Source: a virus. Taken from it: 47,287 bases of DNA. Below the pieces are notes generated by a model. That model worked only from the letters and a program-made list of their open reading frames with translations, searched no databases and was not told where the DNA came from. The position numbers and the translations under genes were made by a program. The DNA lies in the IMG/VR virus record IMGVR_UViG_3300022925_000043, positions 1 through 47,287 of that record. One strand, given 5' to 3'. Shown here one piece after another: positions 14,538 through 39,392 of the stretch (position 1 is its first letter; the number at the start of each line of letters is the position of its first letter).

Positions 14538-14936
14538 CTACTTCATCGCATCCTCAATTGCCTTTTTCATTGCAACTGAAAATTCGGTTTGTTCAAATGG
14601 TAAGTTCTCATCTTGAAGTTGAAGAAGTGTTGCCGATACATTCATCTTTGCTGAACCTATGCCAATTGTTTCAACACCATCTTTCACAACTTTTACTGTT
14701 ACTAAAGTTTTCTTTTGTTTGAACTTAAATGGTCCAACTTGAATTCCTTTGGTTGGTGCTTTGATTGATTCAACGGTAACATAGATTGGTGAACCATCTT
14801 CACATAATGGAGCAGATTGTCCAACGATTTCTTCGGTGATTTGTCTTACACCAAAGGTAAATTTCTCTTCAGGAATTCCTTTAAGAGATGCAAGTGAGAT
14901 TACACTTGCTACGAAATAGCATACTATTGTATTCAT
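14538..14936 (-). CDS. Module A: small secreted GVR-motif protein
   Basis: 132 residues with a short hydrophobic N-terminus (NTIVCYFVASVISLASL) that looks like a signal peptide. The mature part has FTFGVRQITEEIVGQ, an alternating beta region (YVTVESIKAP, KKTLVTVKVVKDG) and a C-terminal helix (EFSVAMKKAIEDAMK). The same plan, GVR followed by an acidic helix, beta strands and a terminal amphipathic helix, appears in the module B protein at 38910-39392, so I treat them as distant paralogues. The start overlaps the upstream stop as ATGA. It may be a periplasmic accessory of the CsgG-like pore. It does not match CsgE by eye. Confidence 0.75.
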   Translation of the reverse strand: MNTIVCYFVASVISLASLKGIPEEKFTFGVRQITEEIVGQSAPLCEDGSPIYVTVESIKAPTKGIQVGPFKFKQKKTLVTVKVVKDGVETIGIGSAKMNVSATLLQLQDENLPFEQTEFSVAMKKAIEDAMK

Positions 14937-16132
14937 TGTGTTATAGTATTTGAGTTAACTGTCCTTCGGTGTTTTCCCAAAGAAACGATATAAAACCTAT
15001 CCAAATTGTTAAAAGTTCTAACCGCAGATTTTGGATATTTTAAGTGATAAGTTAAACTATTAGCGTTTACTTCAACATCATCCTTTTCCGATTGTGAATA
15101 AACATAGTTATGATTGTATGTGTAATTAAAGAGTTGTCCCAAATTATAAATTTGATATGCAGAAAATACATCCGAATAAGTTACAATATCCGAACTATCG
15201 GGTTCATAGAAGTTCATTGTGTGATAATCCCACGATGAGATTTCATTGGGGAACATCCTAAGATATGCAAGGTAATTCATTTCAGATTGTGTGAATGTAT
15301 TTACCATATTAGAAGCATCAACAATTACTTCATAATCATAGTTATTGGGATTAGAAAATGAAACAGTACCAGTTAATGTTGTAGTTTGAGTTGCTAATGT
15401 ATCACTTATACCAGGTTGAACATTGTTTTCAATCAACCACGCTTGTCCGTTGGTATAGTTACCACTACTTATCAAATTACTGGCTATCCAACTTGAACCA
15501 TTTGATAATCCTATTTGTTCTATATTAGAACCATCAGCAAGGAATTGTCTGAGTACTACTAATATTTCTTCGTTGTTGTTTTTAGTAAAGTAAATATCAA
15601 TCTTTGTATTGATACCGGTCACATTATACTTGTAACTTCCTTCATATCTAATTCTAAATACATCTCCTAATGATGGGTCATTATAAGTTTCAGTAGATAC
15701 ATGCGACATATTATTATCCGTAGAGCCATTGTTAACGGAAGTAAAGTGTAGAGTGGGTACATTTGGCGCAGATGCTGAACTATTATAACTATTATAGGTT
15801 GTGGTTGGAAATGCCATCCAAGCATTAGCGTGGAGTTTACCCGTTGAGTAAGTTGTTCCTCCAATTGACGGTTGATACCCCGATGGGATGTTTACTATTA
15901 CCGAACCTTGGTCTGAATTGGTAGTTGAGAATATTGTAGATGTACCTTGACCTCTATCCGAAGGTATCCCATTTGTCATTTGAGTTATACTACCAATCGT
16001 TCCACCCGGTTGTGAGTGAATTACCGTTACTTCGATACCACTCATATCTTGAACACCAACAGTAGCAAAGGTAATGTTTTGTGCAAACAAACCTATTGGA
16101 AACAACAATAAAATTTTCAACCATCGTATCAT
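14933..16132 (-). CDS. Module A: secreted beta-rich protein
   Basis: 399 residues with a signal peptide (MIRWLKILLLFPIGLFAQ). The mature region is rich in Ser, Thr, Asn, Gly and Tyr with many beta strands (GIEVTVIHSQPGG, LHANAWMAFPTTTYNSYN, VFRIRYEGSYKYNVTG). Near residues 305-330 the segment DSSDIVTYSDVFSAYQIYNL resembles half of a dockerin-type helix-loop repeat, as in the cohesin/dockerin protein of the same operon. It has no counterpart in module B. It overlaps its neighbours by ATGA at both ends, so it is tightly co-translated. It could be the exported or surface-displayed client of the pore (inference). Confidence 0.75.
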   Translation of the reverse strand: MIRWLKILLLFPIGLFAQNITFATVGVQDMSGIEVTVIHSQPGGTIGSITQMTNGIPSDRGQGTSTIFSTTNSDQGSVIVNIPSGYQPSIGGTTYSTGKLHANAWMAFPTTTYNSYNSSASAPNVPTLHFTSVNNGSTDNNMSHVSTETYNDPSLGDVFRIRYEGSYKYNVTGINTKIDIYFTKNNNEEILVVLRQFLADGSNIEQIGLSNGSSWIASNLISSGNYTNGQAWLIENNVQPGISDTLATQTTTLTGTVSFSNPNNYDYEVIVDASNMVNTFTQSEMNYLAYLRMFPNEISSWDYHTMNFYEPDSSDIVTYSDVFSAYQIYNLGQLFNYTYNHNYVYSQSEKDDVEVNANSLTYHLKYPKSAVRTFNNLDRFYIVSLGKHRRTVNSNTITQ

Positions 16133-17649
16133 AACAACATCTTCGTACCAGTCATTAGTTGAAAGTTTAATATACCCTCACCCATTAAATATACAGTTGA
16201 GGTAGATATGTTAAACTTAAAGGTTTTTGTAACATTAAAATCGAAACTTGTTAGAGGTACAAAAAGGAATCCCCCTTTGAACCATTGTCCTTCATAGAAG
16301 AAAGTATAAGGTGAGTACATTGCAATTCCCATAAGGTTCATCGCAAATCCTCTATATCCATTAAAGGTAGTGAATGTACCAACATTTGCTGCCCAATTTG
16401 AGAATGTTTCATCACCCAATTGACCTACTGAAAAGTTTGTTCCCATTAATGTAGTTAGATACTTACTTTGTTTAAATGCGTACATCACATTGCCCGTATT
16501 GAACCAAGTTTCTTGAGATACATTATAAAGGAACGAATTAGATGCAATAATCATTGATTCCTCAATCTTAAAAGAACCATATCCCGTTAGAGATATTTCA
16601 TTTTGTCCAGTTGTGTAATTCAACAACCCACCAGCGGTAATTGTTTGTTCGGTATTTGCCCAAGTAACACCCATATTAAATTTAAGGTTATCGTTACCAC
16701 TTTCTTTATAATCTGAACCATTACGAACAACTACCATATCACCACTTGCAATCAAAGAACCCTTTCTTGCTCTTGCACCATTTTTCTTTTTCTTCCCACC
16801 ACCTCCACCACCGGAGTCATCTTCGGAATCAGATGATTGGCCGCCCGATTCTGCATCAATATCTTTATCACCAATAGCACCACCACTTGATGAACCACCA
16901 TCCCCATCGGAAGTTGCTCCACCACCATCAGTAGATTGTCCGCCTTCAGAAGAACCACCACCAGTTCCCCCACCAGAAGAACCACCGCCGGAATCACCAC
17001 CTCCACCAGAACCACCAGAACCTCCGCCTGATGAACCTCCACCAGTAGAACCACTTCCACTATCTCCACTACCAGATGAACCACCAGAACCTCCAGTATC
17101 ACCACCAGTGTTACCACCACTACCTCCACCAGTATCTCCACTACCAGAAGATGATGAACCACCATCACCAGATGAAGTACCAGTGTTATCGTTGGATGAA
17201 CCACCACCATCACCAGATGAAGAACTTCCACTATTTGAAGAAGATAAAGATGATGAACTACCAGATGAAGAACCACCGGATGTTGATGAACCTAATGTGG
17301 CTAACGCACCAGTTATATTAGTTACAGTATTAGTTACGTTCGTACCAACCGCTGATGAGGTTGTTCCACTTACTACTCCAGCATTTCCAGCACAAGGATT
17401 TGAACCGGGAGGAGATGCGGCATTAATAGAAGCAACCCAAGCCTCATAACCACCGGTCTGAAGTTGGGTTGCTGTAAAGTTTTGATATTGTCCTGCGTAA
17501 AAAAGAGTTACCGAACCTGAAGGTTGTGAAATAGTTACAGTATTAGGAACACCCGTACAAGGGTCAACATAAGTGTATTGGAACGATTGTCCAAAACCCT
17601 TAAACCCTATAAGAAGTAATAATACTATTAACCATTTCTTACCATCCAT
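16129..17649 (-). CDS. Module A: outer-membrane-barrel-like protein with Ser/Gly linker
   Basis: 506 residues from the ATG at 17649, chosen because it gives a good signal peptide (GKKWLIVLLLLIGFKGFGQ); the longer frame to 17670 begins with TTG. Residues 22-90 form a small domain with paired Cys (YVDPCTGVPN ... GSNPCAG). Residues about 125-290 are an extreme Ser/Gly/Asp low-complexity linker ending in a KKKK block. The last ~210 residues alternate hydrophobic and polar residues and read like an outer-membrane beta barrel (LLNYTTGQNEISLTGYGSFK, LNFQLMTGTKMLL). The module B protein at 34153-35502 has the same order of parts. It overlaps the CsgG-like stop by 11 bases. It occupies the place of CsgF next to CsgG, but is much larger. 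Confidence 0.8.
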   Translation of the reverse strand: MDGKKWLIVLLLLIGFKGFGQSFQYTYVDPCTGVPNTVTISQPSGSVTLFYAGQYQNFTATQLQTGGYEAWVASINAASPPGSNPCAGNAGVVSGTTSSAVGTNVTNTVTNITGALATLGSSTSGGSSSGSSSSLSSSNSGSSSSGDGGGSSNDNTGTSSGDGGSSSSGSGDTGGGSGGNTGGDTGGSGGSSGSGDSGSGSTGGGSSGGGSGGSGGGGDSGGGSSGGGTGGGSSEGGQSTDGGGATSDGDGGSSSGGAIGDKDIDAESGGQSSDSEDDSGGGGGGKKKKNGARARKGSLIASGDMVVVRNGSDYKESGNDNLKFNMGVTWANTEQTITAGGLLNYTTGQNEISLTGYGSFKIEESMIIASNSFLYNVSQETWFNTGNVMYAFKQSKYLTTLMGTNFSVGQLGDETFSNWAANVGTFTTFNGYRGFAMNLMGIAMYSPYTFFYEGQWFKGGFLFVPLTSFDFNVTKTFKFNISTSTVYLMGEGILNFQLMTGTKMLL

Positions 17650-18379
17650 ATGCTTCCATACGTTTAACAAGGTTTACCGTAGCAACCTCTAACGCACGTT
17701 GGGTAGCAATACCAACAGTAGAATTATCAAATCCCATTTGAGGATTTTTGAAGAATCCCTCACCTACTTGAGTTGCAGTTCCCTGTCCACTCGCTACGAT
17801 GTATTGTGAGTTATCTACATTGACCATTCTGATTTGGATACCCATAATAGTAGTGTTAGTTATTTCTGATTTACCTCTTACATAATTTTCACCATATGAT
17901 ACTGCGAAATCATAAATCTCAGCATATACGATGTACTTAGGTAAAGCAATACCCTCCATCTTTAACTCAGTTTGTCCATCACCCATTCCATTGAGTTCGG
18001 CTTCCCAAGCATCTAACATTTGATTTTGGATGGCTTCCTTTTCTTCAGCGTATTTGAATCGTTGAGTCATTTCAAAGTTCTCAATGATTCTATTAGATAC
18101 ACCTAAACCAACTCTCTTATCTCTCAACTCAGGGAACATTTCCCAAAGTTCTTTATTTACGTTAAGTTTTGATAATTGAACAATTTGTTTCTCACCTGTA
18201 AAAGGTGGCATAGTATTCAATGGTTCTGCTTTCTCAAAATCAGCTTGGTATTGAACCACACCAACTGATGAAGAACATGAGGTTGCGAATGTACCAACGA
18301 ATACTAAAGCACAAGCAGTAAGGATGAGCATCAAAGGTGCTACTGTCCATTCTAAAATTACATCTTTTCTCGTTCTCAT
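17639..18379 (-). CDS. Module A: CsgG-like curli secretion pore protein
   Basis: 246 residues, near CsgG size. After a hydrophobic N-terminus there is a possible lipobox Cys (TFATSCSSS), consistent with an outer-membrane lipoprotein. The CsgG/TolB-like core includes LRDKRVGLGVSNRIIENFEM, RFKYAEEKEAIQNQM, KYIVYAEIYDFAVSYGE, TTIMGIQIRMVNVDNSQYIV, GQGTATQV and GIATQRALEVATVNLVKRM. CsgG forms a nonameric export pore for curli subunits in E. coli. The counterpart at 35506 is plainly related (PELRDxRVGLGxxN, EIYDFxVS, GxATxxALExA). It lies three bases after the small TM protein in a tight operon. Confidence 0.88.
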   Translation of the reverse strand: MRTRKDVILEWTVAPLMLILTACALVFVGTFATSCSSSVGVVQYQADFEKAEPLNTMPPFTGEKQIVQLSKLNVNKELWEMFPELRDKRVGLGVSNRIIENFEMTQRFKYAEEKEAIQNQMLDAWEAELNGMGDGQTELKMEGIALPKYIVYAEIYDFAVSYGENYVRGKSEITNTTIMGIQIRMVNVDNSQYIVASGQGTATQVGEGFFKNPQMGFDNSTVGIATQRALEVATVNLVKRMEAYGW

Positions 18380-18381
18380 AA

Positions 18382-18780
18382 TTATTTATTTTTTTCTGCT
18401 CTTTCTCTCTTCAATCTAGCCATTCTTTCCATTGGAGTTTCTGGCTTCTCTTCTACCACTTCAACAGGTGCAGCAGGTACTTCCTTTACAGTTTCTCTGA
18501 TGATTGTTCTCGTAGGAGCAGGAGCTTGTTGAGCAGGAATGTTAATAATTACACTCTGATTCTGAGTGTTAGTGTTTGAGTTGTTATTCTCATTACTATT
18601 GAAATTATTATTCTCAACAGGCACTACCAACTCAGTTGGAGCATCCGATTCTTCTTCAATACCCAATATTGAATTGAATTGAGTAGTTACAAATGTACCA
18701 ACAGCTGCAACCATTGTTCCAGCCAAACCAATGATACCTTTCTTTAAGGAACTCATTCCTTCTTTGATTTCTTCTTTCAT
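18382..18780 (-). CDS. Module A: small single-TM protein with INIP...TII motif
   Basis: 132 residues. One membrane segment at about residues 14-40 (GIIGLAGTMVAAVGTFVTTQ) is followed by an Asn-rich disordered stretch, then SVIINIPAQQAP...RTIIRETVKEVP and a charged basic end. The module B protein at 36489-36806 repeats this order with IIINIPEQKPTETKTIIKEV. Both precede a CsgG-like gene. It could be a membrane tether or an inner-membrane partner of the pore. I know no described family with this combination. Confidence 0.78.
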   Translation of the reverse strand: MKEEIKEGMSSLKKGIIGLAGTMVAAVGTFVTTQFNSILGIEEESDAPTELVVPVENNNFNSNENNNSNTNTQNQSVIINIPAQQAPAPTRTIIRETVKEVPAAPVEVVEEKPETPMERMARLKRERAEKNK

Positions 18781-18792
18781 AATAAATTAATG

Positions 18793-20724
18793 TTACTTTT
18801 TAATAATTCTATAAACCTTATCTCTATCAGCCGTAACCAATCTTACCAAATACATTCCGTTTGGTAAGTTTTCCATTGTGAAACCTTGGAATTGGAAACC
18901 ACTTTGATAAATCTTGTCAGACCATCTCATAGCTTCTCTACCATTCATATCGTAAACCATTGCGTTAATATTACCATCATCCAAATATGTATGGTATTCA
19001 AATACAATCCAATGTCCCATTAATTCAGTTGTTGGGTTTGGATAAACTTTGAATCCATTCATCATTAAATCTAATTCAGGGTCTATTGAGGTTCTATTAA
19101 CAACTGAACCATCATTTGGTGAAGGCTTAACACTAACATCTTGTGCATATCTATCACCTGCCATTTTTTCAACTATTTTTAGTGGTGATTGATTCCAACC
19201 CAATGGGTCAATTACCTCAAAGTTGAAAGTGAACTGAGTTGTCATATCATCAACCAATGAGGGGTTTAATCTATCTTCGTGTCCAGCCCAAAATACTTTT
19301 CCCTTTTCAACCGAAAGAACTGAAGTCCACTTTGATGTTGCTTCTCCCATTTCGATTGATTCAAATCTAAAGATTGCAGTATCGAATTCAATACCCATTT
19401 GAATTGCACCTAATTGGTTACCAAATGTGTAAAGAGTTACAGGTACACTCATCTTATTATCAGCTGTCATTGTTAACTTAGGAATTCTAAATTCAACAGT
19501 ATCAGGTTTGTTAGAAAGATACACCGCTGGGTCTAAGATGTAATCAGTTCCAATACCAGGGTCAGCCATTTTAGCAACTAACACACCAGGGTTGTTGTAT
19601 CCAGTTGTAGTTGCATCACCCACTACATATATGTAAGGTTTAAGTGAATCCATTGAGTTTACGATTGTATCAATTGAATAAACTCTTGGAGTGTTTGTCC
19701 AAGTTGGAGATGCGGTTGCTGCTAATGCTGATGTGTACTCATCTGGCCATAAGATTGCCACATTGTTCACACCACTAAATAAGGATGTCCAAGTTGTAGA
19801 TTGTAATGCCAATCTATTGAACATTGCGAATGCATCTGAAATGGTTACATCGTTACTTTCGTTGATATCACCAGCGTACCATTCGATTCCCGAAAGTGTG
19901 TCTTGTTGAGAAGATTGGTTTGCTAATTTATATGCATCAGTTACGGATAATGCGAATCCATCACTCATCGTATCCGATTGTGCGGTTATTCTTAAATTCC
20001 AAAATGCAGTATCCAATTGGTCTTGTACAACGAACAACCCATTTGAGTTTGTTGAATCAGTTCCGATTGGAGTCCATAAACCAGAAACATCTGATTTTAA
20101 TCTTTTCTGAGCGGTAAACCACATACCTTGTGCTGGAGTTCCATCTGCGTTTCTTGCGATGATTGGGAACTCTAAGGTATCCATTTGGAAATTACCACCA
20201 TAATTGTGCATTGCTAATGGAACATCTAAACCAGAAGTTGTAGTTGCTAAGTTGTTGTAAGTTGTTGAACCAGCAACTGCGATTGAATCTACAACACCAT
20301 CATATGTAGTTGTGTGATACAATCTTAGTTTGAACATTGCCCCATCTGCCCAATCAAATCCACTATTCGTACCTGTATAAGATGCAATAACATTCACATA
20401 ATCGGAATTAGCGAAGTACGAACCATACTTATCCGTAATCGGAGTAGCAGTTGGTCCCCAATAAATCTCAGGAGTTGTGAATGATGTATTATCATAGAAG
20501 ATTCTGAACTGAACAGCTGAGAATATATCGGATAGTGTTGGGTTAGCGTAGTGTAAATAAATTTCGGTGTAACCTACCGAAATATCTTGCTCTAAAGTAA
20601 ATAGAGTATCCACAAGAATGTGTGGAGAGTTTGAGTTAGGAGCTGTAAGTATTTCATTAGCCCCATTTTGACCATAAGACACAAATGGTAACATTAGTAT
20701 CAGGCCTAATAAAAATCGTTTCAT
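18793..20724 (-). CDS. Module A: secreted cohesin/dockerin-like protein with T9SS sorting domain
   Basis: 643 residues with a signal peptide (KRFLLGLILMLPFVSYG). Two cohesin-like beta regions lie at about 45-160 and 415-515 (GAIQMGIEFDTAIFRFESIE, KVFWAGHED). Between them, about residues 260-310, is a dockerin-like pair of helix-loops (SVTDAYKLANQSSQ, GDINESNDVTISDAFAMFNR). The last ~80 residues are a T9SS type A sorting domain: FKVYPNPTTELMG, MVYDMNGREAMRW, MENLPNGMYLVRLVT, ending KVYRIIKK. In Bacteroidota such domains send proteins through the type IX system to the cell surface. It is the first gene of module A, with a ~100-base leader and a late-like motif at 20826-20835. Confidence 0.85.
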   Translation of the reverse strand: MKRFLLGLILMLPFVSYGQNGANEILTAPNSNSPHILVDTLFTLEQDISVGYTEIYLHYANPTLSDIFSAVQFRIFYDNTSFTTPEIYWGPTATPITDKYGSYFANSDYVNVIASYTGTNSGFDWADGAMFKLRLYHTTTYDGVVDSIAVAGSTTYNNLATTTSGLDVPLAMHNYGGNFQMDTLEFPIIARNADGTPAQGMWFTAQKRLKSDVSGLWTPIGTDSTNSNGLFVVQDQLDTAFWNLRITAQSDTMSDGFALSVTDAYKLANQSSQQDTLSGIEWYAGDINESNDVTISDAFAMFNRLALQSTTWTSLFSGVNNVAILWPDEYTSALAATASPTWTNTPRVYSIDTIVNSMDSLKPYIYVVGDATTTGYNNPGVLVAKMADPGIGTDYILDPAVYLSNKPDTVEFRIPKLTMTADNKMSVPVTLYTFGNQLGAIQMGIEFDTAIFRFESIEMGEATSKWTSVLSVEKGKVFWAGHEDRLNPSLVDDMTTQFTFNFEVIDPLGWNQSPLKIVEKMAGDRYAQDVSVKPSPNDGSVVNRTSIDPELDLMMNGFKVYPNPTTELMGHWIVFEYHTYLDDGNINAMVYDMNGREAMRWSDKIYQSGFQFQGFTMENLPNGMYLVRLVTADRDKVYRIIKK

Positions 20725-20825
20725 AAGATAATTACTCTTTGATTAAGTAACTATAACCTATTAATAAAACTGAAGTAATTGGTGGAACTGTTTTAGGAAT
20801 TTGTAGTGTTTCCTAATTTATCTAA

Positions 20826-20835
20826 ATATAAGTAT
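20826..20835 (-). promoter_or_regulatory. Late-like motif ahead of CsgG module A
   Basis: ATATAAGTAT on the plus strand (coding strand ATACTTATAT), 102 bases before the module A start. The identical 10-mer stands ahead of module B at 39501-39510. Resembles GATATTTATA found before virion genes. Confidence 0.5.
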
Positions 20836-20839
20836 TATG

Positions 20840-21565
20840 CTAGTAGGAAAAGAATTCATCTTCATCTGGATTATCGGATACCTCACCATAATCTAAATAT
20901 TCATTTAACATTCGTTTTTGATGTTCTTTCATTACGTTAACAACTTTGGTAATATAATGAGTTTTACAATCAGTCATTTCTCGTATCAAAAGATATAAAT
21001 GCTTTTTGTTAAAGTTCTCTATGAATTGACTTCTTCTAAATAGTTCTAAGATTGCATCCGCTATCTGAATATCTCTTTTTTTTGTAAATACTTTTGTTAG
21101 ATTCTTTTCCCAATATGCTAACATTAATTCTTTAAACTCACCATACTCAGTACCAATTTCATCATCATAAAAATTATCTTCAGGATTCCAAGCTTCAGGC
21201 ATCTGAGATAATAAATCAGTTTTTTTGTAACGTTTGTAATTTCCGTTATTTTGTAAAATTAAATGATTTTTTGCAACAATAGAAAAATATGAAAATGCTC
21301 TACCCTTATCAGGTTGATACATATGAATTTTTTGTATCAATACAGATACAACCTCACTTTGTATATCAGATTTAGGCACATCAAAGTATGAAAACTTAAA
21401 TGTATTTAAAATATTTTCAGCTAGTTTTTCAAATGGAAATTGAATTCTTTCTTTATATATTTTATTTCTTTCATGCGGGTCAGTACTTGCATTATATTCT
21501 ATAATAGCTTCTTGTGCTGGTGTTCCGAAGTATATCTTTGATTTCTTTTTTCTCTGTTTTGCCAT
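20840..21565 (-). CDS. Late transcription sigma factor, gp55-like
   Basis: 241 residues. The central part matches the sigma region 2 pattern of T4-like late sigma factors: FDVPKSDIQSEVVSVLIQKI, then YQPDKGRAFSYFSIVAKNHL. The C-terminal part is helical and ends in an acidic tail (DNPDEDEFFSY). T4 gp55 directs host RNA polymerase to late promoters together with the sliding clamp. The recurrent motif upstream of virion genes and of both CsgG modules is a good candidate target (inference). The stop of the upstream 87-residue membrane gene lies three bases before this ATG, and both would be read from a host-type promoter at 21849-21880. Confidence 0.83.
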   Translation of the reverse strand: MAKQRKKKSKIYFGTPAQEAIIEYNASTDPHERNKIYKERIQFPFEKLAENILNTFKFSYFDVPKSDIQSEVVSVLIQKIHMYQPDKGRAFSYFSIVAKNHLILQNNGNYKRYKKTDLLSQMPEAWNPEDNFYDDEIGTEYGEFKELMLAYWEKNLTKVFTKKRDIQIADAILELFRRSQFIENFNKKHLYLLIREMTDCKTHYITKVVNVMKEHQKRMLNEYLDYGEVSDNPDEDEFFSY

Positions 21566-21568
21566 AAT

Positions 21569-21832
21569 TTAAATGTTATCTTTATATTTCTTAATAACAT
21601 CTTTTAATTCTGAGAATACTACACCCACTTCATCATCGGATTCAAATGAACCCTTTAAATCCAACTGCCTCATTTCATCTAACATAGATTCCAATGTTTG
21701 CAGAGTATTATAATCGTTGTTAACAACGTTTAATTGAGATTGTTCTACTTGAGTAACCAAACGAATACCTCTCCAAAAAAGAAAGATATTCAGTATGATT
21801 GATACCCCTAATATAATATATAAAATTTCCAT
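21569..21832 (-). CDS. Small N-terminally anchored membrane protein
   Basis: 87 residues from the ATG at 21832 (MEILYIILGVSIILNIFLFW); a longer frame to 21871 begins with TTG and would overlap the promoter at 21849-21880, so I reject it. One TM helix is followed by a cytosolic or periplasmic helical tail (EQSQLNVVNNDYNTLQTLES, then GVVFSELKDVIKKYKDNI). Unrecognised. It is cotranscribed with the gp55-like sigma gene. Confidence 0.68.
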   Translation of the reverse strand: MEILYIILGVSIILNIFLFWRGIRLVTQVEQSQLNVVNNDYNTLQTLESMLDEMRQLDLKGSFESDDEVGVVFSELKDVIKKYKDNI

Positions 21833-21848
21833 AATATAAAAGATAATG

Positions 21849-21880
21849 TAAATATACGAAAAATATTTCAATTTTCCAAA
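21849..21880 (-). promoter_or_regulatory. Host-type promoter for the sigma factor operon
   Basis: Coding strand TTTG (21877-21880), a 20-base spacer, then TATATTTA (21849-21856), 17 bases before the 87-residue gene. Matches the Bacteroidota -33 TTTG / -7 TAnnTTTG form, with the last base changed. Confidence 0.62.
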
Positions 21881-21887
21881 TTTATTT

Positions 21888-30620: not shown

Positions 30621-30625
30621 TTGTT

Positions 30626-31953: not shown

Positions 31954-32394
31954 TTAATCGTAATATTCTACGATTACTCCTGCTTCTTTAAACATCTTCA
32001 TTGAACGAATAGATGATTCATCCCATTTATCACCTTTAGCTCCTTTACCTTTTCGTAATACTATTTTGGATACACCACTATTAATAATTGCTCTAGCACA
32101 ATCTGAACAACTCATTCCACAAGTCATATACATTGTAGTCCCTAATGTAGATACTCCGATTCTTGCGGCATTGTAAATAGCGTTTCTTTCCGCATGTTCA
32201 AACCAAAAGTATTTCTCAGGCCTATCTTGCCTTTCACTAATATCATCGTTTATACCCCTTGCAAATGAGTTGTAGCCGGTAGAAACAATCTCATTATCTT
32301 TACCAACTACAACTACACCTATTTGAGTTTTCTCATCTTTTGATTTTAACTTAACCTGTTCGGCAATGTTAATAAAGTATTCATCCCAATTCAT
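31954..32394 (-). CDS. dCMP deaminase
   Basis: 146 residues with the zinc deaminase signatures: FEHAERNAIYNAARIG (HAE) and MTCGMSCSDCARAIINSG (CxxC). The N-terminus (WDEYFINIAEQVKLKSKDEK) and the general build match phage dCMP deaminases, which turn dCMP into dUMP for thymidylate synthesis. It overlaps the metallophosphoesterase by ATGA. T4 gene cd performs the same role. Confidence 0.9.
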   Translation of the reverse strand: MNWDEYFINIAEQVKLKSKDEKTQIGVVVVGKDNEIVSTGYNSFARGINDDISERQDRPEKYFWFEHAERNAIYNAARIGVSTLGTTMYMTCGMSCSDCARAIINSGVSKIVLRKGKGAKGDKWDESSIRSMKMFKEAGVIVEYYD

Positions 32395-33071
32395 ATTTCA
32401 ATCACATTTCCGTTAGATGTTAATTTACCAAATCTACCATCTTTCATTACTGAACCATTTGAGAAGATTGTATCTAATCCACTTAATTTCATAGTTCCCT
32501 GATTGATGATATCTTGGTGATTGTGGATATGTCCGAATAAAACCAATTTAGGATTTACTTCCATTACTCTATTGAGTAGTGATTTATCACCACATCTTTC
32601 TAAGTTACCACTTCTATCCAAAGATAAATCTAAGATACCTTTTGGAGGTCCGTGAGTAACAATGATATCCACATCTTCATCAACATAGTTTCTCCAAAAT
32701 CTTTCTAACTTATTTCTATCTTTGTTGAAAGCCCACCCATATCCAAATGTTGGAGTATGTGGTGAACCGAAGATTTTAATTCCATCAATGATAACATCTT
32801 CGTTTTCTAAGTAGAGGATATTGTGTCTTGCGAAATCTTCTGAGGTTACGAATTTGTTTTCAATAGAAGTATCGTGATTTCCGGCAACAAAAATCTTATA
32901 CGGAATCTTTAGTGTACGATACCAATCAATAAAACCTCTTACCTCAACTTCGTTGTTATAAGGGTCTCTTGGATTAGAACAATCCCCACTAAAAATCACC
33001 ATATCAATATTTGCTGGAACTTCCAACAAATTGTGATAAGTGTGTGTATCTGATATGTGCCAGATTCTCAT
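32391..33071 (-). CDS. Calcineurin-like metallophosphoesterase
   Basis: 226 residues from the ATG at 33071 (MRIWHISDTHTYHN); a longer TTG frame exists to 33107. All five metal motifs are visible: ISDTH, VIFSGDCSN, FVAGNHDTS, IIVTHGPPKG and VLFGHIHNHQ. Such proteins cleave phosphodiesters or nucleotides; the class resembles phage phosphoesterases of the YfcE/MPP type. The stop overlaps the dCMP deaminase start by 4 bases. Confidence 0.88.
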   Translation of the reverse strand: MRIWHISDTHTYHNLLEVPANIDMVIFSGDCSNPRDPYNNEVEVRGFIDWYRTLKIPYKIFVAGNHDTSIENKFVTSEDFARHNILYLENEDVIIDGIKIFGSPHTPTFGYGWAFNKDRNKLERFWRNYVDEDVDIIVTHGPPKGILDLSLDRSGNLERCGDKSLLNRVMEVNPKLVLFGHIHNHQDIINQGTMKLSGLDTIFSNGSVMKDGRFGKLTSNGNVIEI

Positions 33072-33073
33072 AA

Positions 33074-33220
33074 CTAAATTCCTATTACTAATTCTTTGTT
33101 TAACCAACCAATGATGAGTTCTAAATCACCATTCAGATTTCTATTGTGTGTTAACTTCACAAAGGGTAAGATATACATCTGCCCCCATACTGAACATATT
33201 TCAAATTTTATTTTGCCCAT
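33074..33220 (-). CDS. Small hypothetical protein, 48 residues
   Basis: Read from the minus strand: ATG at 33220 (MGKIKFEICSVWGQMYILPF), then NGDLELIIGWLNKELVIGI and TAG at 33074. It overlaps the end of the Nmad1-like gene by 13 bases and ends two bases before the metallophosphoesterase ATG. The exact fit of the gap supports a real gene, although the length makes this uncertain. No recognised motif. Confidence 0.52.
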   Translation of the reverse strand: MGKIKFEICSVWGQMYILPFVKLTHNRNLNGDLELIIGWLNKELVIGI

Positions 33221-33570
33221 TTTCCTCGTTGAACAATTTGTGCGATGATACCATATACTGATAAATCTTCATAAGTATCTTGGATTGATTCACCCACTTC
33301 ATCGGGCTGTCCTAATACTACCAATTGTTTTAATCGTTGCACTTTATCGTTGATACGAAACCATAAACCAGTTAAGGATAGTTTCACATCATCATCAGTT
33401 TCCAATGGAGTTCCTACTGAAATGTTACCAGGTCCGTAGTTCCTTTGCTTCTTACAAAAGGTGATATACATTTCTTCTTGAATCTTTTTGAATTCATCCG
33501 TTGTGTTGGGATACATTCTCTCACAAAATTCAACTGCGGATTCTCCGTATTGTGGTGTTTCTTCGCTCAT
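33208..33570 (-). CDS. DUF1599 / Nmad1-like protein
   Basis: 120 residues with the family pattern ITFCKKQRNYGPGNISVG, then WFRINDKVQRLKQLV and SIQDTYEDLSVYGIIAQIVQ. The group (nucleotide modification associated domain 1, Nmad1) is found in phages and near hypermodified-DNA genes; it may act on modified nucleotides. A host-type promoter lies at 33590-33621. Together with dCMP deaminase and the phosphoesterase it forms a nucleotide-related operon. Family assignment by eye. Confidence 0.75.
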   Translation of the reverse strand: MSEETPQYGESAVEFCERMYPNTTDEFKKIQEEMYITFCKKQRNYGPGNISVGTPLETDDDVKLSLTGLWFRINDKVQRLKQLVVLGQPDEVGESIQDTYEDLSVYGIIAQIVQRGKWAK

Positions 33571-33589
33571 ACTATTTAATGTTTATGAA

Positions 33590-33621
33590 CAAATATACAA
33601 AAAATAATTGAGAGTTCCAAG
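33590..33621 (-). promoter_or_regulatory. Host-type promoter for nucleotide operon
   Basis: CTTG (33618-33621), 20-base spacer, TATATTTG (33590-33597) on the coding strand, 20 bases before the Nmad1-like ATG. Would drive Nmad1-like, the 48-residue gene, metallophosphoesterase and dCMP deaminase. Confidence 0.72.
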
Positions 33622-33730
33622 CCTTTTCAACTAAATTTACTAAATGTGAAATTATTTGATTTTTTTTTATCGTTTGGGGAAACTGGGGTATATCTATATA
33701 TACTGAAATAACATACTCTAAGGTGAAGCT

Positions 33731-33871
33731 ATGAGTTTAAACGCTTCCAAACTTCAATCAGAAACGATTGTTGGTTCAGATACATTTTTTATTTTTGAAT
33801 CTTCAGACAACAGAGACACGGTGCAAGACAAGACACTGTTTAAACTGTTTATAAGAAATAAATTAAAATAA
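33731..33871 (+). CDS. Possible small plus-strand ORF
   Basis: 46 codons from an ATG preceded by AGGTGAAGCT: MSLNASKLQSETIVGSDTFF, then IFESSDNRDTVQDKTLFKLF and IRNKLK, stop TAA. It runs against the surrounding minus-strand genes, but a TTTG-N20-TATATACT promoter-like element sits 27-58 bases upstream with the same 20-base spacer as the host-type promoters. It could equally be a noncoding RNA. Weakly supported. Confidence 0.25.
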   Translation: MSLNASKLQSETIVGSDTFFIFESSDNRDTVQDKTLFKLFIRNKLK

Positions 33872-33888
33872 AAATTTAGACAAGACAA

Positions 33889-34125
33889 CTAAAGCACTTC
33901 ATAAGAGAATTTATCAATTCTTCTTACTACTCTATAAACTCTTGCAGATGGGTCCTCATTATCCAACTCATCTCTTTTAGATTGAGCTTCTTCAATAGTA
34001 TCATATTCATCTAACGTATCTTCTGCGTTTAGTTTATAAACCCATATTTGTCTTTTAGCCCAATTAGGGTCTCCAGCGTTTGTATCAACTGCTACTAATT
34101 GTTTTTGTACTGCGTATTCTTTCAT
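33889..34125 (-). CDS. Small hypothetical protein
   Basis: 78 residues (YAVQKQLVAVDTNAGDPNWA, KRQIWVYKLNAEDTLDEYDT, SARVYRVVRRIDKFSYEVL). A GATATTTATATAA motif lies about 19 bases before the ATG (34144-34153), overlapping the stop of the module B barrel gene. The pattern of strands and one helix suggests a small single-domain protein. Unknown role, probably late by its promoter motif. Confidence 0.64.
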   Translation of the reverse strand: MKEYAVQKQLVAVDTNAGDPNWAKRQIWVYKLNAEDTLDEYDTIEEAQSKRDELDNEDPSARVYRVVRRIDKFSYEVL

Positions 34126-34152
34126 TGTGATTTCTTTATTTTATATAAATAT

Positions 34153-35502
34153 CTAAAAAGGTAGTTTTGTACCTATCATAAAAGATTTGATAAGTGGTAT
34201 GATTGGGTTTGTAGATTTAATAAATGTTGCTCCCACATTAACTGAGAACCTTTTTGTTAATTGTAATGTGAATGAATTTGCAAGAATCACCATTCCATCT
34301 ATCCGAGTTCCCTTCAGTTGATTTTGTAAATCAAACCTACCCATATATGGTGATTGTGTCCAAATGAATGCAGGTGTATATTGTATTCTAGGTGATATCA
34401 TAACCATATTCGTATAAAGTAAGTTATATCCTAACATTGTCATTTGATACTTACCCTCACTAAACATATTTACCATACTTATACCAACTCCAGCTGTTCC
34501 CCACTTACCCATTGGTTTTAATTTGTTTACCGAAGCAACAATTGTACCATTACCAAAGTTATTCATATATCCCACACTTGCGGATGTAATTGATGATACT
34601 TTAGGTTGAGGTGGTGTTATTGGGTCTTTTGTAGTTACAACACTACCCTTTGCATAATGTGAATGGTCTTGATGTATTAATTGAGATACATTAAATTTCT
34701 GCATGTGAACTTTGGTATAAGAACCATTAAGAGCAAATTGTTTTAGATTAGAATAAATCATAGCAGTTGCTCCATAGGTTACATCTCCAAAGATTGAGGA
34801 TTGGGTTACCCCAAATGATATTACCGCATCATAGTTACCTAATAGAGCTTGATTAACCATCATATCTGCTCTGAGTTGAATTGGTAACATTTCAGTTTTC
34901 TTCTTTTTCTTTTCTTCTTCTACTTCTTCAGATTCTTCTCCATCTCCATCATCTGAACTATTCTCATCATCAGTTCCTTCTTCCGATGATTCTTCATTTG
35001 TTGATTCACCATCGCCTCCTTCACTCTCCGTTGATTTACCTTCACTCTCATTAGATTCAGTTGAATTTGATGAATTAGTATCAGTACCCTCAGTAGAAGT
35101 AACCTCATTTGTTGTTTGATTTGTTGCATTTGTTGTCCCTCCATTTGTTGCGGATGTAGCAGTTGAAGCAGCAGTAGATGCCGTAGATGCCGCCTGAGTA
35201 GCATTTTGGGCTGTTTGTTGTGCTTGTTGTGCTTGTTGAGTTGATTGAGAACATGGTGATAATGTATTCCACCATTCGTAAGTTTCAATCAACCATTGGT
35301 TTAATGTACCATTTGTAAATTCCGTATAAGTAAAGGTTCGTATCTTATTATAAAATGCTACAGTAGCCGAACCATTTACAAAGTTAGCAGTAACAACCTT
35401 TACTTCTCCCGTACATCTATCTACAAATGTTTGAGTAAAGGTTGTTTGTGCATAAGTTGAACCACTTATAATCAGAAATAATATTATAAGAAGTTTTTTC
35501 AT
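34153..35502 (-). CDS. Module B: outer-membrane-barrel-like protein with acidic linker
   Basis: 449 residues with a signal peptide (KKLLIILFLIISGSTYA). Residues 19-88 carry the two-Cys domain (FVDRCTGEVKV ... NTLSPCSQ) seen in the module A protein. Residues ~90-200 are Gln/Ala/Thr-rich then Ser/Glu/Asp/Gly-rich, ending in KKKKK. The last ~245 residues have alternating beta strands and aromatic girdles (SVGYMNNFGNGTIVASVNK, SFTLQLTKRFSVNVGATFIK) and end MIGTKLPF, near-identical in form to module A's MTGTKMLL. It is the last gene of module B and lies 3 bases after the CsgG-like stop. Confidence 0.8.
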   Translation of the reverse strand: MKKLLIILFLIISGSTYAQTTFTQTFVDRCTGEVKVVTANFVNGSATVAFYNKIRTFTYTEFTNGTLNQWLIETYEWWNTLSPCSQSTQQAQQAQQTAQNATQAASTASTAASTATSATNGGTTNATNQTTNEVTSTEGTDTNSSNSTESNESEGKSTESEGGDGESTNEESSEEGTDDENSSDDGDGEESEEVEEEKKKKKTEMLPIQLRADMMVNQALLGNYDAVISFGVTQSSIFGDVTYGATAMIYSNLKQFALNGSYTKVHMQKFNVSQLIHQDHSHYAKGSVVTTKDPITPPQPKVSSITSASVGYMNNFGNGTIVASVNKLKPMGKWGTAGVGISMVNMFSEGKYQMTMLGYNLLYTNMVMISPRIQYTPAFIWTQSPYMGRFDLQNQLKGTRIDGMVILANSFTLQLTKRFSVNVGATFIKSTNPIIPLIKSFMIGTKLPF

Positions 35503-35505
35503 TCA

Positions 35506-36222
35506 TTAGTTTTCGAAGATACCCTTCTTAATCATTCTTGCCACAATTCTCGCTGAAGCAGTTTCCAATGCTTTACGAGTAGCAACTCCTATACCTGATT
35601 CTCTAAATGCGATTTCATCCACATCTAAACCAATTAAACCTTCTTGAGTTTTAACAGTCTTAGCATCCCCTAAACCAGACCCCACTAAGTATCTACCAGT
35701 CTCAGCATCAGTAAAACGAACTTGCAATCCTAATCGAGTTGTAGAAGTTTGTTTAGAACCGTCTTTAAGAGAAAGTACCTCATCTTCTGAAACTGAGAAA
35801 TCGTAAATCTCAATCGTTACAAAGTATTCAGCAAGAGTAATCTTACCCATACCATATACTTTATTTTCAGATACACCCTTACGAGATGCAACCCATTGTG
35901 ATTTCATTCTATCTTTAATTGTAGATTTTTCTTCTACAAACTCAAATCTATTTGTCCAATCCAAATATTCGATTACAATGTTAGTTAATCCCAATCCTAC
36001 TCTACCATCCCTTAACTCTGGATAAGTTCCGTACAACTCATCTGAGATACCTACATCGAGCAATGCAACAGGTAACATATCCCCATCATAATCGGAAACA
36101 TCATCGATAGATTTTTTCTTTTCAAATTCTGCAACATATTCTTCTGCTTTTATACTTCCTACTTGTGAAAAGGTGATTTGTGTTAGAAATACACATATCA
36201 ATAATAGTAATAATTTTTTCAT
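35506..36222 (-). CDS. Module B: CsgG-like curli secretion pore protein
   Basis: 238 residues from ATG 36222 (MKKLLLLLICVFLTQITFSQ); the frame to 36315 starts with TTG and overlaps the preceding gene, so I reject it. CsgG-like core: PELRDGRVGLGLTNIVIEYL, RFEFVEEKSTIKDRM, EYFVTIEIYDFSVSEDE, RLGLQVRFTDAETGRYLVGS, GIGVATRKALETASARIVAR. It aligns with the module A protein over the whole length. Unlike module A and E. coli CsgG, no Cys follows the signal peptide, so it may not be lipid-anchored. It lies between the 77-residue membrane gene and the barrel gene. Confidence 0.87.
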   Translation of the reverse strand: MKKLLLLLICVFLTQITFSQVGSIKAEEYVAEFEKKKSIDDVSDYDGDMLPVALLDVGISDELYGTYPELRDGRVGLGLTNIVIEYLDWTNRFEFVEEKSTIKDRMKSQWVASRKGVSENKVYGMGKITLAEYFVTIEIYDFSVSEDEVLSLKDGSKQTSTTRLGLQVRFTDAETGRYLVGSGLGDAKTVKTQEGLIGLDVDEIAFRESGIGVATRKALETASARIVARMIKKGIFEN

Positions 36223-36235
36223 TTTTTGTTTATAT

Positions 36236-36469
36236 TTAATGTGTTTCTTTAATATCTTTTGGTAATCTCCATCCATATAATTTACTTTGCCACGCATACC
36301 AAATAGCTCCGCCAAAAAACAATACTATCCATCCAATACCAACCCACTCATTATCTTTTGCATACGATTGAATATTATCATTTAACAATATAAAATTCAG
36401 TAAAGTTATGTGAAGTACGAAACCCCATATTTGACCCCACACTCTCCACCATTTTAAAAACTTTTTCAT
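36236..36469 (-). CDS. Module B: small two-TM protein
   Basis: 77 residues with two membrane segments (WGFVLHITLLNFILLND and WVGIGWIVLFFGGAIWYAW) and a basic end (LYGWRLPKDIKETH). It has no counterpart in module A. It sits between the single-TM gene and the CsgG-like gene, 13 bases before the latter. It may hold the pore partner in the inner membrane. Unrecognised. Confidence 0.7.
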   Translation of the reverse strand: MKKFLKWWRVWGQIWGFVLHITLLNFILLNDNIQSYAKDNEWVGIGWIVLFFGGAIWYAWQSKLYGWRLPKDIKETH

Positions 36470-36488
36470 ATAATTTAATTTAATTGAT

Positions 36489-36806
36489 TTACCAATCTAT
36501 TTCTTCCTCTTTTTCTTTTTTCCTCTTAACCGGAACTTCTTTAATAATTGTTTTAGTTTCTGTTGGTTTTTGTTCTGGAATATTGATGATAATTTCAGGT
36601 CCAGTTACATTAACTGATTGATTTTGTTCAGCCTTAACCTCAACCTGCTCAGTTTTCTCATCTTCTTCATCCGCAATACCAATGAACGTTTTTACCTCAT
36701 CCATAAACATTGTACCGATACCAGTTAAGATAACTCCAGCACCAGTTGCAATTTGATTCTTCATGTTTGAAAAGAATCCACCATTGTTTTCTGCTTCTTT
36801 ACTCAT
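36489..36806 (-). CDS. Module B: small single-TM protein with INIP...TII motif
   Basis: 105 residues. Membrane segment at about 18-43 (IATGAGVILTGIGTMFMDEV), an acidic stretch, then EIIINIPEQKPTETKTIIKE and a charged end. The module A gene at 18382 has the same order (TM, disordered, IINIP...TII). Its start overlaps the lipoprotein gene by ATGA. Conserved in both modules, so probably a core part of the system. Confidence 0.76.
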   Translation of the reverse strand: MSKEAENNGGFFSNMKNQIATGAGVILTGIGTMFMDEVKTFIGIADEEDEKTEQVEVKAEQNQSVNVTGPEIIINIPEQKPTETKTIIKEVPVKRKKEKEEEIDW

Positions 36807-37159
36807 AATTTTATAATTGTTTGTTTAATGATTTTGCTTTGGTTATCTTTAACCAAAAATTTGTAACTCCCTTTAGGTAATGCTTTAGTGTAAATTTGTA
36901 ATGAATTCACACCAGCTTTACCATTAACTTTTTCATTTGTGTAAGTTATGTTAGTAAAATCATCTATTAAAGATAATGTATATTCACCATTAGAATCGAA
37001 GTTTATAATAAACTCATCCCCATCACTTACAACTGTATTTTGTACTTCGAAAATATCCATATGTAATTCAGTATCGTTACCATATGGTTCAACCTCCATC
37101 AAATCAGCAGTACATCCAAACACTAATAAAAGTGGTAATATGTAAAATATCTTTTTCAT
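36803..37159 (-). CDS. Module B: lipoprotein resembling a stand-alone T9SS-type C-terminal domain
   Basis: 118 residues. Signal peptide with lipobox (KKIFYILPLLLVFGCTADL). The mature part ends with a beta sandwich like the T9SS type A sorting domain: EYTLSLIDDFTNITYTNEK, GVNSLQIYTKALPKGSYKFL and a terminal IIKQTIIKL. In module A a domain of this form is fused to the cohesin/dockerin protein, while the module B cohesin protein lacks it and this gene follows directly. It may be a split-off anchoring domain (inference). It shares one base with the upstream stop. Confidence 0.7.
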   Translation of the reverse strand: MKKIFYILPLLLVFGCTADLMEVEPYGNDTELHMDIFEVQNTVVSDGDEFIINFDSNGEYTLSLIDDFTNITYTNEKVNGKAGVNSLQIYTKALPKGSYKFLVKDNQSKIIKQTIIKL

Positions 37160-38913
37160 TATTCTATATTCATTTTAAGTTGTTCACCTCTTGCGTTAAC
37201 CGCATCAGTTGTTGAAAGAATAACCAATCCTAATGTGTTTTGTAACTGGATTGTTGGTGTAAATGTTAAGGTGTACTTTGTTGATGAATCCAAAAATTGA
37301 TTTTGAATTTGTACTAATGACCCAATATTAATATTATTACCTTTTAGATTACTAAAGTTAGTAGATGTGTTATTTGTTTTAAAATTGATATCATCAAATA
37401 CTAATCGATTTGAATCAAACCCAAGTTTATATTGTGCACCAATCACCTTTTGAGTACCTGGTTCCATTGTAATCGTTACTACAACTTTACCATCCACTAA
37501 TTCAGTAACTAATGTAGTAGATATCTGCCTTTCCTCTTTATTGGTTGCCTTAGCATATGATGGAATAAACTCTTTAGCTTGTTGAGCCGCAGCAGGGTCT
37601 GCTCCACTAACATCGGGTTCGGTAGAGTGTGATAGATTTACATCACCTCTCCAAGTTATTGCTGTTTCAAAATCAAATTGTAATGTGGTGTTATCCTTAT
37701 TATCCAACTCCGTCATCAATGTAGTTCCATTTACAATTTGAGGATAGTTTTCATTTGTTATCGTATCATATTGTGCTTTTGGATAGAACTTAGATGCATA
37801 AACCATAGCTTCTGGGTCTGTTAAATAACTCGTACCCTCAATTACATGCAATAACATCTGATAGGTATCATCGGAATTGAATGTACCATCTTGGTTAACA
37901 TCAGCATTCATAAATTGAACACCATAGTTGAATTCATTTCCAACTTCGTTACCACCAATACCACCATTGTTTAATTCAGCGAAAGCAAGGGCAACATCTG
38001 ATATAGTTACAATCTCATCATATTGTTCTGAGAATGGAATTGTGTAATCACCATTTTCAGTATCAACTACATAACCATCCCAATTTACAATTACCGCAAA
38101 ATCATCAGTTCTATTAAAACCTTGAGTAATATCCAATGTTCCAGTTGAAGATAGATTTCCATATGTTGCATATTGTGGCTGATACCAACTATTTGGTTCA
38201 TTTGGGTCTGGTGTATATAACCCACCATCAAATAGTATTGGGTCTAAACTAGCAGGAAATAAGACTTTGAATTGTGCACTCACAGTTGTAGATGGTGGAA
38301 CATTATCAAATGATTGATTTGGAAATGCGGTAATACTTGTAAAGTTATATGAAGTAGTATTATCTCTAACCGATGCCTTTCTTAGCATAGTAGATTGATT
38401 AAAATCAAATCCGTTTGGAACTTGCTTATACCTAAACTTTAATCTTGCCACAACACCATCCAATTCACCTGTTGTTTGTGAAGTTATTACCATCGGAGCA
38501 TCATCTGAGTTTTCATCTCCTACATATTCCCAATAATGGTCGGTGTAATATTGTCCATATAAATCATCTACATCTGCGGTAGTTGAATTATGAAAGATAT
38601 AAGATGAAGGCCATTGATTGGTGTACCAGTTACCATTAGTATTTGGATTATCAACTCCCAAATATTCAAATGCATCATTTTTAAAGGTTAACCAAATATC
38701 AGCATAAGTCACTATTCTTTCTGAGTTATCGGTATTACCAATTGTGATATCTAAATAAAACTCATCACCAATTTCCAAATCGGTAACTGGTGTTGTTTCT
38801 CCTTGCACAGGTTCGTTAATCAACCCTGCATAATCTAACGATATATTAATTTCTTGTGAGTACACACTTAGTGTACTTAGTACACATACTAAAAGAGTTA
38901 AAATTTTTTTCAT
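37159..38913 (-). CDS. Module B: secreted cohesin/dockerin-like protein
   Basis: 584 residues with a signal peptide (KKILTLLVCVLSTLSVYS). Cohesin-like regions at about 45-175 (TYADIWLTFKNDAFEYLGVD, GVVARLKFRYKQV) and 470-580 (KVIGAQYKLGFDSNRLVFDD). Between them a dockerin-like pair: VTISDVALAFAELNNGG and MNADVNQDGTFNSDDTYQML with a Ca-loop Asp pattern. Same order as the module A protein, but the C-terminal sorting domain is absent. The start overlaps the GVR gene as ATGA. A self-linking polymer is conceivable from having both partner domains. Confidence 0.82.
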   Translation of the reverse strand: MKKILTLLVCVLSTLSVYSQEINISLDYAGLINEPVQGETTPVTDLEIGDEFYLDITIGNTDNSERIVTYADIWLTFKNDAFEYLGVDNPNTNGNWYTNQWPSSYIFHNSTTADVDDLYGQYYTDHYWEYVGDENSDDAPMVITSQTTGELDGVVARLKFRYKQVPNGFDFNQSTMLRKASVRDNTTSYNFTSITAFPNQSFDNVPPSTTVSAQFKVLFPASLDPILFDGGLYTPDPNEPNSWYQPQYATYGNLSSTGTLDITQGFNRTDDFAVIVNWDGYVVDTENGDYTIPFSEQYDEIVTISDVALAFAELNNGGIGGNEVGNEFNYGVQFMNADVNQDGTFNSDDTYQMLLHVIEGTSYLTDPEAMVYASKFYPKAQYDTITNENYPQIVNGTTLMTELDNKDNTTLQFDFETAITWRGDVNLSHSTEPDVSGADPAAAQQAKEFIPSYAKATNKEERQISTTLVTELVDGKVVVTITMEPGTQKVIGAQYKLGFDSNRLVFDDINFKTNNTSTNFSNLKGNNINIGSLVQIQNQFLDSSTKYTLTFTPTIQLQNTLGLVILSTTDAVNARGEQLKMNIE

Positions 38914-39392
38914 AGTAAATCCTCAACTATTTGAACCAATACTTTCTTTAAAGCACTGGAGGCAGTTTGTTGGTTAAAACTACCATCGGATGCAACTACG
39001 AGTGTTGAGTTTGATATCTCCTTACTCACTCCCTTTTTCGTAACTCTCTTCTTTACTTTTTTTCCTTCTTGGAGTTCTCCAATTGCTATAATTTGAGTTG
39101 CTGAAACTTTGTTATGATAGATACCAATACTTTTTCCAATATTCTTTACATCAAAAAAGACTAAACGAATATTAATTTGAGTATCTGCACCATCCCATAA
39201 ATCATAATCTAAATCTATTAAGAGTTCTTCTAATATATTACGAACTCCCATAGAAAGATTAGAATTACCAGCGAAAGGACCTAATCGAATTTCGTTAGTA
39301 ACTTCCCCTATTTTAATTTCTTGTGAATGGGATTGATGAATAATCCCACATAATAGGAATAGATAAATTCCTATAAACTTTAAAGCACTCAT
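38910..39392 (-). CDS. Module B: small secreted GVR-motif protein
   Basis: 160 residues with a signal peptide (KFIGIYLFLLCGIIHQSHS). After it come EIRLGPFAGNSNLSMGVRNI, LEELLIDLDYDLWDGADTQI, a beta region and the helix TASSALKKVLVQIVEDLL. GVR plus an acidic helix and a final amphipathic helix repeat the module A gene at 14538. It opens module B, while its paralogue closes module A. A motif identical to that ahead of module A lies at 39501-39510, ~109 bases before the ATG. Confidence 0.75.
   Translation of the reverse strand: MSALKFIGIYLFLLCGIIHQSHSQEIKIGEVTNEIRLGPFAGNSNLSMGVRNILEELLIDLDYDLWDGADTQINIRLVFFDVKNIGKSIGIYHNKVSATQIIAIGELQEGKKVKKRVTKKGVSKEISNSTLVVASDGSFNQQTASSALKKVLVQIVEDLL

Follow-up and report, generated by a model that had tools for sequence, protein, structure and literature searches.

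Why a single phage should carry two related sets of genes centred on CsgG-like proteins, and what such sets may do for the virus, is the question raised by the IMG/VR virus record IMGVR_UViG_3300022925_000043, the whole of which (47,287 bases, 33% G+C) is called the window in the following. The two gene sets, module A (14538-20724) and module B (34153-39392), are made up of open reading frames that all lie on the minus strand (table 1) and are separated by unrelated phage genes, which fill 20725-34152. The virus, a myovirus as judged from its genes, encodes baseplate wedge proteins, a PhoH-like protein, a dCMP-type deaminase and a DNA helicase, and a host among the Bacteroidota is indicated by a sorting signal of the type IX secretion system (T9SS) in module A together with a cultured relative, the Flavobacterium phage immuto. 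The answer proposed here, on which we stand about evenly poised, is that the module may be an envelope machine, encoded by the phage, through which the infected Bacteroidota cell comes to display variable adhesins.

The module proteins give almost no matches in direct Pfam and PHROGs searches, and their relationships were established by comparing the modules with each other and with those of other viruses. The two CsgG-like proteins are about 34-36% identical (expectation value, E, 3.5e-40); the single-transmembrane 'INIP' proteins (E 6e-9 to 2e-7) and the barrel proteins (E 1e-11 to 1e-7) match in phmmer searches; and the cohesin proteins (probability 96.6, E 5.5e-10, 458 columns) and the GVR proteins (probability 95.3, E 2.4e-8) match in profile-profile comparisons, in which mismatched control pairs reach probabilities of 0.3-8.5. 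By these comparisons the modules are homologous, and all five pairs of homologous-looking parts named in a preliminary description of this DNA, made from the sequence alone, are borne out by the pairwise alignment of A and B that it had proposed as a check. The common core order that it had noted, cohesin-transmembrane-CsgG-barrel, is also identical in A and B, except that the GVR gene comes at the end of A but at the start of B. Absent from its list were a sixth gene in module A, that of slot protein X, and two additional small genes in module B (36803-37159 and 36236-36469).

Table 1. Genes of the two modules and of their surroundings in the window.
Coordinates	Strand	Feature	Basis or remark
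14082..14477	-	Conserved gene bordering the A site, 131 residues	also in G013 and G017, beside other cargo
14538..14936	-	Module A GVR protein, 132 residues, shortened second CsgG-like domain	profile match to B GVR protein
14933..16132	-	Module A slot protein X, 399 residues, signal peptide, variable ectodomain	family of 63 slot proteins
16129..17649	-	Module A barrel protein of the outer membrane, signal peptide, two-cysteine (two-Cys) domain, barrel	AlphaFold, Foldseek
17639..18379	-	Module A CsgG-like protein, 246 residues, lipobox-like ATSC at residue 36	AlphaFold, Foldseek; 36% identical to B
18382..18780	-	Module A single-transmembrane protein, 132 residues, VIINIP...RTIIRE tail	homologous to 36489-36806; in 71/71 loci
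18793..20724	-	Module A cohesin protein, 643 residues, signal peptide, T9SS type A sorting domain 560-643	Pfam, TIGR04183
20840..21565	-	Second conserved gene bordering the A site, 241 residues	also borders other cargo in G013 and G017
34153..35502	-	Module B barrel protein, 449 residues, with two-Cys domain and linker	open frame, phmmer
35506..36222	-	Module B CsgG-like protein, 238 residues, ordinary signal peptide, without lipobox	sequence comparison
36236..36469	-	Module B small membrane protein, 77 residues	open frame; also in L030
36489..36806	-	Module B single-transmembrane INIP...TII protein, 105 residues	open frame, phmmer
36803..37159	-	Module B small lipoprotein, 118 residues, lipobox FGC	alignment, Cys16 invariant; paired with cohesin gene
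37159..38913	-	Module B cohesin/dockerin-like protein, 584 residues, signal peptide	profile match to A cohesin protein
38910..39392	-	Module B GVR protein, 160 residues, shortened second CsgG-like domain	profile comparison
41095..43839	+	TonB-dependent receptor, SusC-like, 914 residues	Pfam; adjoins module B, neighbour in B-type phages

That these genes belong together is best seen in other viruses. An alignment scan of IMG/VR returned 523 viral stretches encoding CsgG-like relatives, the best 80 of which were kept. Since loci were picked by the CsgG-like gene alone, the presence of its partners is independent evidence. The core order is retained in every one of the 71 IMG/VR loci with enough flank for the order test (at least 4 kilobases (kb) upstream and at least 5 kb downstream), so that the co-occurrence of the four core genes, whose survey in marine viral contigs had also been suggested, is not due to chance. 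All five parts are present in 68/71 loci at the cut-off used, the remaining three having a more distant GVR gene, detected with an iterated profile. Nor is this one virus seen repeatedly, as the 89 counted loci encode 60 distinct CsgG-like proteins. The module is also found in phage immuto, where its genes are annotated mostly as hypothetical proteins; the CsgG-like protein of module B shares 55% identity with its immuto counterpart and 96% with that of a 252-kb virus contig.

The most telling part of the module, overlooked in the preliminary description, is the slot after the barrel gene, which holds secreted proteins with swappable domains. Between the barrel and GVR genes lie, in most phages of A type and in many immuto-like ones, genes for proteins of a single broad family with 63 members, which carry signal peptides as judged by inspection and whose ectodomains differ by phage, being of the Lectin_C, PA14, LamG_3 or Ig_7 type; immuto gp13 is a slot-type lectin, and in B-type phages PA14 proteins follow the barrel. 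The median best identity to the window copy is 31% for the slot proteins versus 78% for the CsgG-like proteins. A dockerin domain has two calcium-binding repeats; a dockerin-like motif of a single repeat is found in 27 of 71 slot proteins, mostly about 85 residues before the end, and aligns with a degenerate form, PDSSDIVTYSDVFSAYQI, in the slot protein of the window; the best match of the slot proteins to Pfam Dockerin_1 (E 0.0028) is below the cut-off. At the level of the predicted proteins, the pattern is that of a constant machine combined with variable surface adhesins.

A possible counterpart of the dockerin-like motifs is provided by the cohesin protein. That of module A contains cohesin-like regions at about 54-157 and 400-537 and, in a motif scan, a dockerin-like motif near residue 286. 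It scores 24.9 bits against Pfam Cohesin (cut-off 24.1) and 33.2 bits against the T9SS sorting model TIGR04183 (cut-off 23), while its family profile matches solved cohesins (E 1.7e-4) and T9SS tail domains; a TIGR04183 tail is also found in immuto gp15 (44.8 bits) and in L033 (30.6 bits). The cohesin protein of module B gives a Dockerin_1 match below the cut-off (E 0.0068) and a weak cohesin match (E 0.01). Its gene is paired with that of the small lipoprotein, and the same pair recurs after the barrel gene in four other loci (L026, L028, L030, L031). The idea that this lipoprotein might represent the T9SS tail of the A cohesin protein, split off as a separate gene, found no support (profile probability 8.5).

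How the slot proteins might leave the cell depends on what the CsgG-like protein is. Members of the CsgG family form nonameric rings, in which two amphipathic hairpins per subunit build a 36-strand membrane barrel. Neither CsgG-like protein of the window matches the Pfam CsgG model PF03783, and no match was obtained when the PDB was searched by sequence, be it with the CsgG profile or a bacterial relative, so that a fold comparison was needed. The AlphaFold model of the A protein (mean predicted local distance difference test score, pLDDT, 69.4) has structures of CsgG as its top Foldseek matches (6l7a, E 7.9e-8, probability 1.0, TM-score ~0.47), followed by PelC (E 3.6e-7) and GNA1162; the comparison was run on A, and the CsgG fold of B is taken from its identity to A. 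Relatives from KSB1, Ignavibacteriales and a Bacteroidota metagenome-assembled genome (L093-L095), 37-42% identical to the A protein, exceed the Pfam CsgG cut-off (25.7, 28.6 and 33.0 bits for L093, L094 and L095, respectively, versus 20.8), which, with the top structural match, upholds the CsgG fold foreseen for the gene at 17639. With Escherichia coli CsgG (PDB 4uv3, 6l7a), the window proteins share the fold, and A also has a lipobox-like motif, which inspection of the alignments shows to be missing from B (where ATG 36222 is a more likely start than TTG 36315), but they are only ~15-18% identical to it, and both hairpin regions are shorter in A and B than in the K-12 protein, whose hairpin limits are set here after the published structure. 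In addition, charged residues make up 20-33% of hairpin 1 in A and B versus 14% in E. coli CsgG, and hydrophobic residues 32-39% of hairpin 2 versus 48%.

With hairpins shorter and more polar than those of E. coli CsgG, a PelC-like periplasmic collar serving the barrel fits at least as well as a pore. A type VIII-like secretion device, in which the CsgG-like protein would itself be the membrane-spanning pore exporting slot proteins or a fibre, is held to be unlikely, if far from negligible: CsgG is the best fold match, the A model has a long hairpin (149-187) resembling the membrane form of CsgG, and full CsgG-CsgF-CsgA/B operons occur in SAR11 phages (PMC9599517), but, besides the character of the hairpins, B is by its sequence not a lipoprotein, and E. 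coli CsgA, CsgB, CsgC, CsgE and CsgF find no match at E≤1 among window frames of at least 60 residues, in a weak test that misses CsgG as well. Of the two related envelope pores or extracellular structures that the preliminary description had suggested, what is borne out is that one phage encodes related proteins for export two times over, whereas the pore is no more than a possible reading, in view of the hairpins, the matching PelC-type rings and the curli partners undetected in the window.

The partner of such a collar would be the barrel protein. In module A, where ATG 17649 is by inspection a more likely start than TTG 17670, it consists of the two-Cys domain, a helix (98-127), a disordered Ser/Gly linker of ~170 residues and a 12-strand beta-barrel (305-511, numbered from the TTG start; barrel pLDDT about 70-93), which in Foldseek matches 12-strand barrels generally, including FapF, autotransporters and porins, so that an autotransporter is one candidate among several. 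A ring with a separate barrel is also the design of the PelBC exporter (PMC12141448), and a PelBC-like exporter, in which a periplasmic collar would feed the 12-strand barrel and export a polymer or protein, the adhesins being passengers or unrelated neighbours, is a reading that we regard as distinctly unlikely. The PelC rings and GNA1162 are the fold matches next after CsgG, the PelC ring has the CsgG-like fold, in a compact form without membrane hairpins, and an outer-membrane barrel partner of its own, and FapF, among the barrel matches, is an amyloid exporter; yet these barrel matches are generic, PelC is smaller, the barrel protein of the modules includes a two-Cys domain and a linker that is long and disordered, Pel genes were not recognized, and no polysaccharide-synthesis gene was recognized in the module.

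A likeness to the core is also found in the bacterial relatives. The CsgG-like gene of the KSB1 contig is followed by the two-Cys barrel gene and then by another CsgG-like gene; of the three loci, L093, a short contig, has the two-Cys barrel protein between the CsgG-like genes, L095 has the barrel gene ahead of both, and L094 has two CsgG-like genes beside which no barrel protein was found. The GVR protein of module A gives a profile match to the C-terminal region of CsgG, and the GVR proteins align, as shortened copies, with the second CsgG gene of these operons, which share the core of CsgG-like, barrel and second CsgG-like proteins with the phage modules and differ from them in that no cohesin, transmembrane protein or lectin was recognized beside them. 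By inspection, the bacterial two-CsgG operons have among their neighbours a caspase-like protein in L095 and a CHASE2-type cyclase in L094. A host origin of the module in Flavobacteriaceae finds no support: relatives occur in 1/301 genomes, and this one is a metagenome-assembled contig with phage-like module genes.

Taken together, these features suggest how a surface-display machine might work. The infected Bacteroidota cell would make and export the module proteins; the CsgG-like ring would lie under the outer membrane and work with the barrel; and the host T9SS would place the cohesin scaffold on the cell surface. As the slot proteins carry a signal peptide but, in the window, no detectable T9SS tail, they would need another route across the outer membrane, for which the ring and barrel are the obvious candidate, and, once outside, they may clip to the scaffold by dockerin-cohesin contacts, to which the weak, repeated domain matches point. 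The infected cell would thus be coated with exchangeable sugar-binding adhesins, and the coat might hold sister cells or particles near until lysis, or mask the surface against rival phages, a speculation on benefit shared with the literature on SAR11 phages (PMC7029224, PMC9599517). In its fullest form, the proposal is of an undescribed, widespread machine of aquatic Bacteroidota phages, in which a CsgG-like ring and barrel export dockerin-tagged, quickly swapped lectins onto a T9SS-delivered cohesin scaffold, so that the virus programs what the infected cell adheres to, the machine as such being derived from an uncharacterized bacterial CsgG1-barrel-CsgG2 operon; this we put forward tentatively, as possible and somewhat doubtful in its entirety.

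Several points weigh against surface display. The cohesin and dockerin scores are at or under the Pfam cut-offs, TIGR04183 detects no T9SS tail in the B cohesin protein, domain searches found no recognized domain in the window's own slot protein, and module B of the window is without a PA14 slot gene after the barrel. No experiment on the immuto operon was found in the literature search.

The adhesins could instead be virion proteins, decorating tail or capsid, as would suit the closeness of module A to the baseplate wedge genes and the lectin-like domains that are common in phage adhesins; such a role seems very improbable, as signal-peptide-like starts are found on all parts but the transmembrane proteins, the B and immuto modules adjoin replication or metabolism genes, and the position of A is a variable cargo site. 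Very improbable as well, in our view, is a device for timing lysis or depolarizing the membrane: such a part in lysis has been put forward for CsgGF of another phage, Melnitz (PMC9004378), and each module has a transmembrane protein, but the cohesin scaffold, the T9SS signal and the variable lectins, none of which lysis proteins need, would be left unexplained.

With surface display as the working proposal, the presence of two modules in one genome can be considered. Two CsgG-like genes were found in 3/87 contigs searched, namely the window, a near-identical contig and IMGVR_UViG_3300025767_000022, a count that is a lower bound, many contigs being fragments; contigs of 160-434 kb showed one copy only. 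In a tree that includes relatives from other phages, A and B fall into deeply separated clades, in which window A groups with A-type and window B with B-type phages, so that the A and B proteins of the window lineage are not sisters. Together with the neighbouring helicase and receptor genes, the B block is found again in B-type phages, and in two B-type relatives the conserved flanks of the A site enclose other cargo (named by inspection): a PAS histidine kinase, a response regulator and two further genes in G013; an outer-membrane protein, a transmembrane protein and a thioredoxin-like protein in G017. Tree, flanks and occupancy of the A site in relatives together point to two old lineages brought together. 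The 'duplicated' module of the preliminary description thus finds no support: as far as the sequences tell, A and B are not a recent duplication, and only one small clade has both. That they arose by duplication within this phage lineage is hardly to be credited, even if one genome holds both and their core order agrees, as the clades are well separated, no second copy was found in the 252-kb phage contig with the near-identical B protein, and relatives of A occur in other phage contigs without B. The simplest history is that of a B-type phage, with module B as native part of its backbone, in which a cassette carrying an A-type module would have settled at a variable site. In related phages, the stretch from 14477 to 20840 beside the baseplate genes takes variable cargo (window; L181, L182); positions 1498-3173 of L181, from a 252-kb virus contig, hold, by inspection, a gene for a PAS histidine kinase, after which comes that for a response regulator.

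Parts of this picture have precedents. Multi-gene CsgG operons with different partners are known in SAR11 phages (pelagimyophages, HTVC023P-type; PMC7029224, PMC9599517), and, like these and the curli genes of Melnitz, the present modules are phage operons centred on a protein of CsgG fold, with marine myoviruses among the carriers. They differ in that neither CsgF nor CsgA/B was detected in the window, in partners that comprise the cohesin/T9SS protein, transmembrane protein, 12-strand barrel, second short CsgG-like protein and variable lectins and, from the SAR11 phages, in their hosts, which the T9SS signal and phage immuto indicate to be Bacteroidota; tblastn searches from either CsgG-like protein did not find the SAR11 phage copies. 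Genes coding for T9SS sorting domains, in one case along with PA14, are reported for Cryophage (PMC7468147) and gut BACON-domain phages (PMC6949934), as separate genes and, in the available parts of these reports, without description of a CsgG-like module. Cellulosome scaffolds resemble the module in that the exported proteins of an operon carry domains of cohesin-like and dockerin-like type; here, however, the proteins are phage-encoded, lectins take the place of enzymes, the scores are weak and the dockerin repeats single and degenerate. Phage CsgG operons and phage T9SS cargo genes being known (PMC9599517, PMC7468147), it is the combination that seems new. It was not found in a literature search covering few subscription papers and no bioRxiv preprints, within which limits the earlier claim of an undescribed multi-gene make-up stands; the make-up itself is real and conserved.

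Some other genes of the window deserve mention. The TonB-dependent receptor next to module B is probably not part of the machine, and was rejected as an obligate part, as only 7 of the 80 closest viral relatives adjoin a module (many of their contigs being short); 106 IMG/VR stretches encode relatives of this receptor, mostly with no module nearby, and phage-encoded TonB receptors are worth a separate study. An Hsp20-type small heat-shock protein is encoded at 26196-26597 (Pfam HSP20, 34.9 bits), and 22345-22917 gives a weak PHROGs match to peptide deformylase (E 2e-6). Positions 1-4000 are almost without open frames of at least 70 residues among closed frames, a count in which a frame crossing the window start would go unlisted. 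A promoter scan was uninformative, sites being rarer than in shuffled sequences.

If the surface-display proposal is right, hundreds of aquatic phage contigs would encode a surface-remodelling machine the parts of which are 'hypothetical' even in a cultured phage. Phages would borrow the type IX secretion of their hosts to build a multi-part structure, and the uncharacterized bacterial CsgG-barrel operon would be a possible relative. The module would also turn 'sibling capture' or surface masking, for which the case has so far been made in SAR11 phages, into a concrete, testable idea, and phage immuto with its host, Flavobacterium sp. LMO8, makes a bench test possible.

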